Source: Candidatus Altarchaeum sp. (GTDB lineage: Archaea > Altiarchaeota > Altiarchaeia > Altiarchaeales > Altiarchaeaceae). From it: a stretch of DNA of 18,123 nucleotides. Below are positions 4,075 through 18,123 of the stretch, piece after piece (position 1 is the first letter of the stretch; each line of letters opens with the position of its first letter). The stretch covers positions 1 to 18,123 of the forward strand of contig JAGTWP010000026.1 of assembly GCA_018260755.1 (NCBI GenBank), written 5' to 3'. A program made the position numbers and the translations under genes. A model generated the notes under the pieces. That model saw only the letters and a program-made list of their open reading frames with translations, did not search any database and was not told where the DNA came from.

Positions 4075-5556
4075 TTAAATAAAAATTTTTGAAAATTCTG
4101 AAAATGTATCAAAAGATAATTCTTTGTTATAATTCCTGTTAAAAAGCTCTGTTATTACATCTATTTCTTCTTTACTATCCTCAAACATTACGTATACTAT
4201 ATCTTCATTTGCTGGTTTCCACCATATTAACGCTTCATTTGAATTTTCACCAAAAACAATTCCTTCATCTTTAGAAGGTGTTTGTAAAATACTTCCAAAA
4301 GGATCAATTAATTTTAAATATGGCTTTCCAAGCAATATATTCATATCTTTTAGCAATTTATCCTTTGTCTTTTGCAGATTATTTATTTTTTCTACTGTGG
4401 TTTTCCAAGAAAATAAGAGAAATATGTTTTTATCATTTTTCATTGCATTGTCAAGCAATTTTATAACTTCCTTCATATATCTTTCACTTAAGCAACTAAT
4501 GGGAGCCACTGGAGAATAAAAATAAATTCTTTTGTTTTTGTTAATTATTTCTTCAATATTTTTCACAAATTCCGACTCGCTCATAAGTTTCAGTCCTTTT
4601 TTTTCTTTGAGGAGTTCATGCATGCTAATTTTATATAATTCTTCAATTTTTGTACCAAATTCTTTTGCTACTTCTTCTTTACTTTCAAATGGTTCTTGCC
4701 TTAACCATTGAAGAGTATTTACTTCTTCAGGAATTTCCGCTCCCTTCATACAGACACACAAAATAAAGTTTTCCTTTTCTACACTCTTTGCTACATAGAA
4801 TTCTTTTTTTAAAGATTCGCTGGTTTCCCATGCTTCTGAAGTAAGAATGAGAACAAAATAATCTGCTTTTTTTATCTTCTTAAATCTATATTTCTCTTCA
4901 TTTTCTTCCCCTGCAGGCATATCTTCTGCAGCAACAAAAGCTTCTTCAATTTCTTCTAGCCCTTTAAAAAAGTGTTTTAAATGTATTGCTATATCTTTTC
5001 CTATGTCTGTTTCATAAGCTATAAAAAATTTTAGTTTTCGTTTCTTTAATTCTTTAATTTTTCTACTTTCTTGGAGGAGTTCATGCATGCGATCTTCATA
5101 TATTTGGAGGAGTTCATGCATGCGATCTTCATATATTTTTTTAATTTTTGTACCAAATTCTCTTGCTACTTCTTCTTCATTTTTAAATGGTTCTTGCCTT
5201 AACCATTGAATAGTCTTTACTTCTTCAGGAATTTCCGCTCCCTTCATACAGACACACAAAATAAAGTTTTTCTTTTTTACACTCTTTGCTACATAGAATT
5301 CTTTTTTTAAAGATTCGCTGATTTCCCATGCTTTTGGAGTAAGAATGAGAACAAAATAATCTGCTTTTTTTATCTTCTCAAATCTATACTCCTCTTCATT
5401 TTCTTCCCCTGGAGAAATATCTTCTGCAGCAACAAAAGCTTCTTCAATTTCTTTTAGCTCTTCCAAAAAGTATTTTAAATGTATTGCTATATCTTTTCCT
5501 GTGCGTGTTTCATAAGCTATAAAAAATTTTAGTTTTTGTCCTTTTAAATTTTCCAT
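4075..5556 (-). CDS. Tandem double-TIR protein with C-terminal PLD-like/sensor-type domain
   Basis: Two TIR domains lie at about residues 9-140 and 175-306. Each has a first strand KFFIAYET, a box with FVAAED and pGEENEE, KADYFVLILT, and then ESLKKEFYVAKS. The Glu in that helix (Glu86 and Glu252) sits where the NAD-cleaving glutamate of TIR NADases lies. The domains are about 80% or more identical and their DNA is also very similar, so the duplication (about 498 bp) is recent. The linker carries an 11-residue repeat, IYEDRMHELLQ, twice, and MHELL returns after the second TIR. Residues about 325-493 form a different domain (RIYFYSPVAP, later GIVFGENSNEALIWWKP) resembling catalytically dead PLD-like sensor domains. 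TIR proteins of this kind often deplete NAD in antiviral defence. That role is inferred here. The protein is cytoplasmic, with no membrane segment. The cassette is bounded by a 36-bp repeat. Confidence 0.83.
   Translation of the reverse strand: MENLKGQKLKFFIAYETRTGKDIAIHLKYFLEELKEIEEAFVAAEDISPGEENEEEYRFEKIKKADYFVLILTPKAWEISESLKKEFYVAKSVKKKNFILCVCMKGAEIPEEVKTIQWLRQEPFKNEEEVAREFGTKIKKIYEDRMHELLQIYEDRMHELLQESRKIKELKKRKLKFFIAYETDIGKDIAIHLKHFFKGLEEIEEAFVAAEDMPAGEENEEKYRFKKIKKADYFVLILTSEAWETSESLKKEFYVAKSVEKENFILCVCMKGAEIPEEVNTLQWLRQEPFESKEEVAKEFGTKIEELYKISMHELLKEKKGLKLMSESEFVKNIEEIINKNKRIYFYSPVAPISCLSERYMKEVIKLLDNAMKNDKNIFLLFSWKTTVEKINNLQKTKDKLLKDMNILLGKPYLKLIDPFGSILQTPSKDEGIVFGENSNEALIWWKPANEDIVYVMFEDSKEEIDVITELFNRNYNKELSFDTFSEFSKIFI
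5071..5136 (-). repeat. Two perfect 33-bp tandem units in the TIR linker
   Basis: Units at 5071-5103 and 5104-5136 are identical and in frame. They encode IYEDRMHELLQ twice. A third, partial match (GAGGAGTTCATGCATGC) occurs near 4609-4625, after the second TIR domain. This marks the edge of the larger internal duplication of about 498 bp. Confidence 0.92.
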
Positions 5557-14950: not shown

Positions 14951-14962
14951 TAAAAATTTAAG

Positions 14963-15047
14963 CAAAATTTTCATTCTTTTTGAATAAAATTTCCCCTGCC
15001 AGTTTGTTCAGAAATGTTCCCGCGCACGCACTTTCAAAAGCATTATC
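14963..15047 (-). pseudogene. Orphan fragment of nnr 3' region (85-bp direct repeat)
   Basis: This matches 15758-15842 inside nnr in 82 of 85 positions and in the same orientation. Read in the nnr frame it gives DNAFESACAGTFLNKLAGEI, then LFKKNENFA and a stop. All three differences change amino acids (G to K, T to A). The normal nnr ending is missing. It lies 29 bp downstream of the TIR gene stop, so the TIR gene is trapped between nnr and this fragment. Confidence 0.93.
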
Positions 15048-15076
15048 TTTTCAAACAAAGCAAGATTAATGGTGTT

Positions 15077-15541
15077 TTATTCTTGATTAAGAAGGCTTCC
15101 ATTTGGCCACAAACTTATGATTTTAATCTCAATCCCATTTTTCTTTTCTACACTTTCTCTTTTAAAAGGAATATATTCGTAATCCTTTTGAATCATTCCT
15201 AAATCTTTTATTCCTTCCTCAACAAACAGCAACATCTTTTTCTTACTAAAAAAACCGTAACTTATTTCGTGATATATCCACGGAGATGTTATCCATTCAT
15301 CTTTATCATTGTGATACCTTTTTGTAAGAATACCGCAAAAAACATTACTTTTATCTATGTTCGGAAGGATTTTTTCTGTTAATGTTTTTGCTTCCGGTTT
15401 GGCGCCGGTTGTAACTTCAAAATATTTTTCCAATTTGTCTATAATCCAACCTACAATTATTTTATCCCTTTCATCAAAACTATGAGCAACAAATGCTCCA
15501 ATTTTTTCGTTTTTACCTTTCAATTGAGGATGTTTAACCAT
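15077..15541 (-). CDS. Single-domain TIR protein
   Basis: The 154-aa protein is essentially one TIR domain. It opens IGAFVAHSFDERDK (14-27, strand A and the BB-loop Ser/Asp region). It continues with IIDKLEKYFEV, TLTEKILPNIDKSNVFCGILTKRY (about 53-76) and SPWIYHEISYGF (86-97). Glu92 aligns with the NAD-hydrolysing glutamate of TIR enzymes, and KMLLFVEEG supplies the next strand. There is no sensor domain, membrane segment or signal peptide. It is unrelated in detail to the double-TIR protein at 4075-5556, sharing only the fold. It lies downstream of nnr on the same strand, with a 148-bp spacer that could hold its own promoter. A NADase effector role is inferred. Confidence 0.78.
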   Translation of the reverse strand: MVKHPQLKGKNEKIGAFVAHSFDERDKIIVGWIIDKLEKYFEVTTGAKPEAKTLTEKILPNIDKSNVFCGILTKRYHNDKDEWITSPWIYHEISYGFFSKKKMLLFVEEGIKDLGMIQKDYEYIPFKRESVEKKNGIEIKIISLWPNGSLLNQE

Positions 15542-15689: not shown

Positions 15690-17102
15690 TTAAATTTTTC
15701 CAAACTCCCTACAAAATTTTATTGCCTCCGGAATTGTATCAACCAATTGCATTGCATCAAAATTTTCATTCTTTTTGAATAAAATTTCCCCTGTCAGTCC
15801 GTTCAGAAATGTTCCCGCGCACGCACTTTCAAAAGCATTATCATTCTGAGCATAAATCCCTGCAATAATTCCCGCAAGAACATCACCTGTTCCTCCGACA
15901 GTTAACCGTATGCAGTCCTTTTCATTAAATTTTAATCTTTTTGTATCTGCAATAATGTCGGTTTTTCCTTTAACAACAATCGTTGTGTTATACTTTTCCG
16001 CAAATTTTTGGACAACCTTTGCTTTATTTTCCGTATTTTCATTATACAAATCAACGCCGAATAATGCCTTAAATTCCCCTAGATGCGGAGTTACGATACA
16101 ATGCTCATTTAAAATTTCCGGATTTATTAACTTTAACGCCTCCGCATCAATAACAACCTTCTTTGATTTTTCAATCACCTCACTTATTAAGTCCTTGCTT
16201 GCTTTTAATGAAATTCCGTTTCCAATTGCTACGCAGTCAAATTTTGCATAATCAGCCACTAAATTTTGCAGATATTCTTCGTCCTCACAAGTAATAAAAA
16301 TAACCGTCGGGTCAAAAATCCGTCTCTGAACAAATTTCGGGGTTGCAAGATAAGTCAAATCATTAAATTTTTGCGATGCTTTTGCGGCTAAATAAGAGGC
16401 ACCTACATAATCCTTACTTCCTCCAATAACCAATGTTTTTCCGAAATAGCCCTTATGTTCATCACCTTTATACTCCTTTAAGGCAGTTAAAAAGTCCCCG
16501 ATTCCGCACATCCGCTCAATTTTTTTTGGAATTCCTATGCTTTTGACAATGGCATTGCCTGTTTTTCCAATTTCAAAAGAAACAACTTTGTCAGCGTTAA
16601 ATTGTACTTCATCGTCTCCTGTTGGAATATCAACGGCAAGTTTATAACAATTCAGTTCATTCGCTAATTCGTTTGCTAAATTTACAAGTGACTTTATTGG
16701 TTCCCTTAACTTTCCTTTGCTTCCGACACCGATTAAGGCATCAACAACAGCATCTGGTTTAAATTTTAAAATTTCTTCTTTTAGTTTTTCAATTTCACAG
16801 CGAGCATTTATTGTCTTTATATCCGCAAAATTTTTCAAAATGTCAAAATTTTTCTGATTTTCATAAGTTCTGTTTCCTTTCAAAGAATAAACCAGAATTT
16901 CCTTTCCTTCGGCGAGCAAATGTCTTGCAGCACATAATCCGTCTCCGCCGTTATTTCCTGTTCCGCAGAATATTAAAATTTTGCTAAAATTTTTGCATTC
17001 CTCTGCAACACATCTTCCGGCATTTTCCATTAAAAGTAATGTGTCAATCCCGAAAAATTTTGCATTTAAATCAATACGTTTTGTTTCTTTTTCCAAGTCC
17101 AT
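15690..17102 (-). CDS. nnr: Bifunctional NAD(P)H-hydrate epimerase / ADP-dependent NAD(P)HX dehydratase
   Basis: It repairs damaged hydrated NADH and NADPH. The N-terminal YjeF epimerase domain (about 1-205) has the loop GTGNNGGDGLCAARHL, VVDALIGVGSKGK and VDIPTGDDE with the catalytic Asp. The C-terminal ribokinase-like dehydratase (about 215-470) has GYFGKTLVIGGSKDYVGA, VTPHLGEFKALFG, VVKGKTDII, and the nucleotide-binding GGTGDVLAGIIAGIYA. The 470-aa length is normal for the fused protein. An 85-bp stretch encoding part of the last helices (15758-15842) is duplicated downstream of the neighbouring TIR gene. The nnr gene itself is complete and ends with the usual family tail (LVDTIPEAIKF). 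Confidence 0.92.
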   Translation of the reverse strand: MDLEKETKRIDLNAKFFGIDTLLLMENAGRCVAEECKNFSKILIFCGTGNNGGDGLCAARHLLAEGKEILVYSLKGNRTYENQKNFDILKNFADIKTINARCEIEKLKEEILKFKPDAVVDALIGVGSKGKLREPIKSLVNLANELANELNCYKLAVDIPTGDDEVQFNADKVVSFEIGKTGNAIVKSIGIPKKIERMCGIGDFLTALKEYKGDEHKGYFGKTLVIGGSKDYVGASYLAAKASQKFNDLTYLATPKFVQRRIFDPTVIFITCEDEEYLQNLVADYAKFDCVAIGNGISLKASKDLISEVIEKSKKVVIDAEALKLINPEILNEHCIVTPHLGEFKALFGVDLYNENTENKAKVVQKFAEKYNTTIVVKGKTDIIADTKRLKFNEKDCIRLTVGGTGDVLAGIIAGIYAQNDNAFESACAGTFLNGLTGEILFKKNENFDAMQLVDTIPEAIKFCREFGKI

Positions 17103-17253
17103 TGTAAAAAATTTTCGTTTTGTATTTAAATTATATTTTAATATTTATTGTTAAAATTTATAATTTATTATATCTAAAATTAATTTATTTTAACTAAATT
17201 TTAAAAAAGTAAAATAGATAAAATGAACTCAAAATTTTTAGGTAGGATGGGTG

Positions 17254-17265
17254 TATATATATATA
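17254..17265 (+). repeat. (TA)6 dinucleotide tract at the signal-peptide junction
   Basis: Six TA units lie between an upstream ATG (17223), which opens MNSKFLGRMGVYIY, and the main frame. With six units the ATG frame stops at TGA 17271-17273. With five units it would run straight into the surface-protein frame. It is a candidate slipped-strand switch. Confidence 0.85.
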
Positions 17266-17275
17266 CGCTTTGATT

Positions 17276-18123
17276 ATGGGAAGTTTGTTTTTAAATTTAA
17301 ATTTTGTTTCTGGATGCGAATACGAGGTTTATAGTTGTGAAAGTTGGAATGATTGTAGTGGTGCTAATCCTTCATGTATATGTCAATCAAGTGATCCATA
17401 TTGCGATAATAGTTGCGGACAATGTAGTTGTTCAAGCAATGAAGATTGTGGAGGATATATGTGCAGTAATGGAAAATGTACATCTCAACAAATAGATTTA
17501 TGCCAAGGTGTGAGTTGCCTAAATTATTGTAGTGGAAATATACTATATTATAATGGATATTGCTCTGATGGAAGCTGTTATTATTCATCTATGACATGTC
17601 CTTCGGAACAAACATGTCAAAGCGGAGCATGTGTTGCATCAACAACCTGCACAAATGGACAAACACAATCATGCACAATAAATGGTTGTGCTGGAACTCA
17701 AACCTGTTCCAGCGGACAATGGGGAAGTTGCGTTAAAAATGATATTTGTTGTGGAGTTACCTGTCCTTCGGGACAAACATGTCAAAGTGGACAATGTAGA
17801 AGTAGTAGTTCAGAAACATGTCAAACCAAAGAATCCTCAGATCATCCACGTGTTACTGATTATTCTACCTCTTATGCCTACATAAACAATCTTCAAGTTT
17901 CAGGAAGTGTTAGCAAAGCAATTGCAAAGATTGGAATACAACATACATATCAAGGTGATCTTGTGGTTGATATTGGTTATTCTGGAAAAGAAAAAAGAAT
18001 ATGGAATAGGCAAGGTGGAAGCGCCGATAATATTTACAAAGATTTTGATCTTATGACTTTAGGATTTGCAGAAAGTGATTTTACAACATCTCATAATTGG
18101 TATTTAAAGGTCTATGATGCTGC
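17276..18123 (+). CDS. Cys-rich surface protein (lipoprotein candidate) with proprotein-convertase P-domain, 3' partial
   Basis: The frame is open to the right edge (282 codons seen). Residues 14-182 hold about 30 cysteines in short repeats such as CPSGQTCQSGQC and CTNGQTQSC followed by CAGTQTCSSGQWGSC, as in secreted disulphide-rich surface proteins. From about 205 a P-domain begins: VSKAIAKIGIQHTYQGDLVV, DIGYSGKEKRIW, then FTTSHNWYLKVYDA. The P-domain is a beta-sandwich usually found beside secreted proteases. From ATG 17276 the N-terminus is hydrophobic but lacks positive charge. The better signal, MNSKFLGRMGVYIY from ATG 17223, is out of frame by one TA unit. VSGC at residues 11-14 resembles a lipobox, so the mature protein may be lipid-anchored at that Cys. 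The enzyme or binding partner beyond the window is unknown. Confidence 0.75.
   Translation, partial: MGSLFLNLNFVSGCEYEVYSCESWNDCSGANPSCICQSSDPYCDNSCGQCSCSSNEDCGGYMCSNGKCTSQQIDLCQGVSCLNYCSGNILYYNGYCSDGSCYYSSMTCPSEQTCQSGACVASTTCTNGQTQSCTINGCAGTQTCSSGQWGSCVKNDICCGVTCPSGQTCQSGQCRSSSSETCQTKESSDHPRVTDYSTSYAYINNLQVSGSVSKAIAKIGIQHTYQGDLVVDIGYSGKEKRIWNRQGGSADNIYKDFDLMTLGFAESDFTTSHNWYLKVYDA

Follow-up and report, generated by a model that had tools for sequence, protein, structure and literature searches.

The DNA analyzed here (the window, 18,123 bp) is the whole of contig C59 from a Ca. Altarchaeum genome bin of 78 contigs and 1.32 Mb, which is 85% complete and has a G+C content of 32%. The host is an uncultured archaeon of the subsurface, and its relatives among the genomes of the collection are the Candidatus Altarchaeum/Altiarchaeales bins HURL_140, A3, and CG2_30_32_3053. 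Near the right-hand end of the window, an nnr-type gene on the minus strand (NAD(P)HX epimerase/dehydratase-like, 15690 to 17102) is followed on the plus strand by the A/T-rich promoter and leader region of an operon (17128 to 17222), with AAA before an ATG at position 17223. A long open frame encoding a candidate surface protein then runs on the plus strand from 17270 to the contig end at 18123; read as it stands, it would begin at TTG 17270 or ATG 17276. C59 overlaps contig C33 by 52 bp, its final bases opening that contig, and this sequence is found nowhere else in the bin. The frame continues across this junction to C33:962, giving a protein of 585 amino acids when counted from ATG 17276. 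No Rfam family matched the window or the adjoining stretch of C33.

The gene for this protein leads a surface operon of four genes that continues on C33. Genes 2 to 4 encode a beta-propeller protein (C33:962-3244), a protein of 268 amino acids (C33:3255-4061), and an Ig-like protein of 878 amino acids (C33:4081-6717), each with a hydrophobic stretch near its N terminus. Gene 2 has an ATG that shares bases with the stop codon of gene 1 (TAATG) and lies in a poor start context (score of -1.4), so that translation of these two genes is likely coupled. The first protein is Cys rich in its first half and gave sub-threshold matches to the P-domain PF01483 (P_proprotein, proprotein convertase), to the S-layer outer domain PF05124 (S_layer_C), and to TIGR01564. 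Its surface-type traits are these weak matches, a signal peptide that appears once two reading frames are joined, and neighbors with secretion-type N termini. Searches for homologues returned none in the genus and order, weak Cys-rich matches in two other genomes from the rest of the class, and none in the collections of genome and viral contigs.

Between the ATG at 17223 and the start codons of the long frame lies a (TA)6 tract, TATATATATATA (17254 to 17265, plus strand), which is the only run of at least six TA units and the longest dinucleotide repeat of the 1.32-Mb bin; the exact pattern of its flanks had no match in viral contigs. In the assembled state, in which the count of six units rests on one assembly consensus, ATG 17223 opens a short plus-strand frame, MNSKFLGRMGVYIYTL (17223 to 17273), of 16 codons. 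The initial annotation had placed ATG 17223, the tract, and ATG 17276 where we found them, and had the short frame end at a TGA right after the tract. The stop codon is present (17271 to 17273), but two codons, ACG and CTT, separate it from the repeat. Removal of one TA unit was said to fuse the two frames, and it does so exactly as described: with five units, ATG 17223 enters the surface-protein frame with the N terminus MNSKFLGRMGVYIYALIMGSLFLNLNFVSGC, and the product is a protein of 602 amino acids spanning the contig junction. The frames are joined with two, five, or eight units and separated with three, four, six, seven, nine, or ten. The unit number hence sets the reading frame, as is required of a phase-variable gene, and one phase in three is ON. 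The break must lie within a stretch of about 30 nt that includes the tract (17242 to 17273, plus strand): a loss of 2 nt or a gain of 1 nt there likewise brings ATG 17223 into the long frame, while none of the 1-nt losses within it does.

To judge which start codon is used, we built an upstream-context model iteratively from 895 open reading frames (ORFs) of the bin. Start contexts in this genome carry a strong AAA at positions -3 to -1 and no Shine-Dalgarno signal. ATG 17223 is the best-supported start, scoring 8.6 against a median of 5.0 for gene starts, which puts it at the 88th percentile of modelled gene starts and, among all ATGs, in the top 0.4%. The two start codons of the long frame, ATG 17276 (-3.6) and TTG 17270 (-5.4), both fall into the bottom 2 to 3%. 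When 1,015 open frames were surveyed, only six combined a poor start of their own with an upstream ATG that is well placed but out of frame. The surface gene is the clearest of them, and it alone has a long repeat within the joinable stretch; the other five mostly resemble overlapping or shadow frames.

The position of the lipobox points the same way. A lipobox-like VSGC (17306 to 17317, plus strand) has its cysteine at residue 31 when counted from ATG 17223 and at residue 14 when counted from ATG 17276, and in the genome's candidate lipoproteins it lies at residues 19 to 44. Archaeal lipoproteins are recognized by a positive n-region, a hydrophobic h-region, and [LVI][AST][GA]C at about residues 19 to 35, an arrangement that the gene lacks as assembled and that requires the joined frames. 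The joined N terminus has two basic residues, a hydrophobic core of 19 residues, and VSGC with Cys 31. The charged and hydrophobic signal with a lipobox that had been predicted for the joined frames is a plausible candidate; its core (best 10-residue mean hydropathy of 2.06) is weaker than those of the other lipoproteins of the genome. It seems reasonable to regard the protein as a candidate lipoprotein. Together, the start model, the survey of decapitated starts, and the position of the cysteine indicate that ATG 17223 is almost certainly the true start and that the gene, as assembled, is broken there.

We also asked whether the repeat itself is unusual. Markov models predict 0.3 to 1.4 runs of at least six TA units per genome and one was observed, so that a single such tract is by itself unremarkable and a genome-wide surplus of (TA)6 can be ruled out; two (TA)5 tracts occur elsewhere in the bin. 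Its place is another matter. The joinable stretches of the six candidates amount to about 590 nt, and by our post hoc estimate, the chance of the genome's single (TA)6 falling into one of them would be about 5e-4. This position makes TA slippage a natural cause of the break. No second locus with a comparable simple repeat at a gene start was found in this genome. Runs of G8 to G9 or C8 to C9 occur inside genes (C75:8295-8303, C45:8128-8135, C8:8380-8387, and others), the G8 run of C45 lying about 20 nt downstream of the start of a gene, and these are possible slippage sites.

The operon around the tract has the appearance of a moved element. In two of the three sister genomes (G001 and G003), nnr adjoins an AK6-type kinase gene without the operon; here, an insert of about 7.6 kb with four surface genes lies between the two. 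An exact direct repeat of 160 bp, made up of the 5' end of nnr and a further 25 bp, brackets the surface operon (16968 to 17127 and C33:6756-6915), and at the copy beside the kinase gene, the match to the sister genomes extends over the native spacer. At its right edge, the insertion has the end, truncated, of a dispersed element present in about 50 copies, and its left edge (17135 to 17175) is identical to C46:3975-4015. We infer from this arrangement that the operon is a moved, accessory cassette, in keeping with a gene whose loss or silencing does no harm. The two identical 160-bp repeats would provide a second, recombinational route to loss of the operon.

Several other repeats and duplications were seen in the bin. 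A relic of the cassette lies behind purB at C46:3968-4344; it consists of the left edge (57 bp, 93% identity, with an exact 41-bp core) followed by 167 bp that correspond, at 94%, to the end of operon gene 4. The dispersed repeat is MITE-like and is found at C33:6713-6756 and some 50 places of the genome, with a shared length of up to about 320 bp, one sharp end (TTTTTTGGGTGGCTGAATAGTTAC), and a single inverted pair of ends; it occurs in the sister genome G003 too. An exact direct repeat of 693 bp (C33:14460-15152 and C33:18473-19165), in which the gene of a membrane (site-2-type) protease has its 5' half duplicated, flanks a module that includes HTH/ImmA-like, PIN-like, and phospholipase-D-like genes; this is a second accessory insert lying between two copies of a gene fragment. 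Within the window, a degraded 3' end of nnr (14961 to 15059; 79% identity, one stop) lies beside a TIR-domain gene (15077 to 15541). A protein encoded at 4075 to 5556 has two TIR-like halves that stem from a duplication within its gene (434 bp at 92% identity, 4606 to 5038 and 5103 to 5536).

The reading that we favor, with a confidence a little short of even, is a real and probably recent OFF mutation by TA slippage, in a surface operon that is accessory and was inserted recently. In the population from which this Ca. Altarchaeum bin derives, the operon would be read from ATG 17223, and its first gene would encode an S-layer-like, Cys-rich secreted protein, probably anchored by a lipid. A one-unit slip in the short TA tract within the signal-peptide codons, most simply from five to six units, would have shifted the frame, so that translation would stop after 16 codons and the protein would presumably no longer be exported. 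The downstream surface genes would probably be lowered as well by polarity, given that gene 2 starts on the stop codon of gene 1. A further slip could in principle restore the frame. The remainder of the 585-codon frame is intact, which suggests a recent or reversible event. Slippage as the cause and the recency of the event are what the sequence suggests; the ancestral state would have had five units, and no five-unit sequence was seen. The interpretation of the initial annotation is supported in part, in that ATG 17223 is backed as the true start by its context, the break lies at or beside the tract, and slippage of one unit explains it.

Two alternatives would do away with the mutation altogether. 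Translation might begin at ATG 17276 or TTG 17270, the frame at 17223 being due to chance or encoding a leader peptide. Both codons do share the frame of the long ORF, and the tract, which resembles an archaeal TATA element, could then be imagined as a TATA box. We nevertheless consider this very unlikely, since the two codons have contexts among the poorest of the genome, and the resulting signal would be without positive charge and have its cysteine at residues 14 to 16, earlier than in any candidate lipoprotein here. The role as a TATA box is not supported either: with archaeal promoter spacing, a TATA box at the tract would place the transcript start at about 17285, beyond both codons, and genes of this genome show no enrichment of TATATA at any fixed upstream distance. 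Alternatively, the organism may have five TA units and an intact gene, the sixth unit being an error of the assembly or consensus. The contig is indeed a draft from a genome bin and ends inside the surface gene, the gene is otherwise perfect, and biologically, nothing would be simpler than an intact signal peptide. To obtain the background of frameshifts, we compared the bin with about 282 kb from the sister genome G003. In 100 comparable, conserved genes (32,396 residues, about 97 kb), no genuine frameshift was found, two flagged joints being antisense frames over gene starts, and the 95% upper bound is about one frameshift per 32 kb. This makes a sloppy assembly unlikely. Moreover, starts broken in the same manner are nearly absent elsewhere in the genome, and a tract of 12 bp is readily spanned by short reads. 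An assembly error is thus clearly unlikely in our view, if less so than translation from the downstream codons.

The fixed OFF mutation must also be weighed against two readings in which the product of ATG 17223 is still made. In genuine phase variation, TA slippage would be frequent and go both ways, and the population would be a mixture of ON cells (five or eight units) and OFF cells (six or seven units). The layout would suit it, as the tract lies inside the signal-peptide codons of a surface-type protein that leads its operon, one of every three phases would be ON, the sole (TA)6 of the genome sits exactly at this start, and the downstream frame is undamaged. Canonical mismatch-repair genes were not found either: the bin lacks hits for NucS and MutL, and its single MutS-domain protein scores far below the MutS1 and MutS2 cut-offs. 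Repair of slippage may consequently be weak, tentatively so at a bin completeness of 85%. On the other hand, phase-variable genomes usually have several such loci and no second comparable start tract was found here, and the shortness of the tract makes frequent switching unlikely. Six units are fewer than the 8 accepted as a threshold for dinucleotides (PMC5953494), and documented TA switching involves 9 to 11 units (PMC2651432). As for the slipped-strand layout claimed in the initial annotation, it holds insofar as the unit number sets the frame, but the tract falls short of that cut-off of at least eight dinucleotide units. We regard high-frequency switching as possible but less likely than a fixed OFF mutation, and genuine phase variation as rather unlikely. 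Recoding, in which slippage of the ribosome or RNA polymerase on the tract would yield some product from ATG 17223 despite the six units, appears highly improbable. Known frameshifting mostly uses A/T homopolymer or heptamer slip sites, and alternating TA is a poor slip site. A conserved counterpart for comparison was not found. In favor of recoding, archaea have known or predicted cases of programmed frameshifting (PMC3711429).

What we favor, a fixed OFF mutation, is an event ordinary in kind, namely a slippage frameshift at a surface gene, and unusual in its host. Mixed TA counts, if they exist, would turn the locus into a directly checkable archaeal contingency locus; otherwise, it is an ordinary inactivated accessory gene. 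Ca. Altarchaeum coexists with viruses and, at one site, with an episymbiont (PMC12133352), and variable surface proteins could matter for this reason. That the tract would be a reversible archaeal TA switch of a whole S-layer-like operon, perhaps responding to surface-attaching viruses or episymbionts, is an idea that we hold to be rather unlikely as well.

Simple-repeat switching has been studied almost solely in bacteria, and a 2025 review names archaea as a future extension (PMC11868660). As in the contingency genes of Neisseria, Campylobacter, and Haemophilus, the repeat described here lies in the first codons of a gene, here one for a candidate surface protein, where a change in unit number breaks or restores the frame; unlike them, the Altarchaeum locus has six dinucleotide units, is single, and resides in an archaeal host. 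In the Neisseria phasome study that set the dinucleotide cut-off, the dinucleotide tracts were unchanged (PMC5953494), and in Haemophilus influenzae, seven of eight loci with five dinucleotide units were without length variation (PMC2651432). The hifA/hifB switch of the latter species shares with our locus the TA unit and, probably, the effect on a surface structure (PMC2651432). However, its 9 to 11 units lie in a promoter and alter spacing, whereas the six units of Altarchaeum lie in coding sequence and alter the frame. Homopolymer tracts at the 5' ends of genes are sites of gene inactivation in prokaryotes, 18 archaea included (PMC2831843). With these, the Altarchaeum tract has in common that it is short, prone to slippage, and close to the start, a setting for low-frequency inactivation rather than fast switching; it differs from those poly-A/T tracts in being a dinucleotide repeat and in that its assembled state is already broken.
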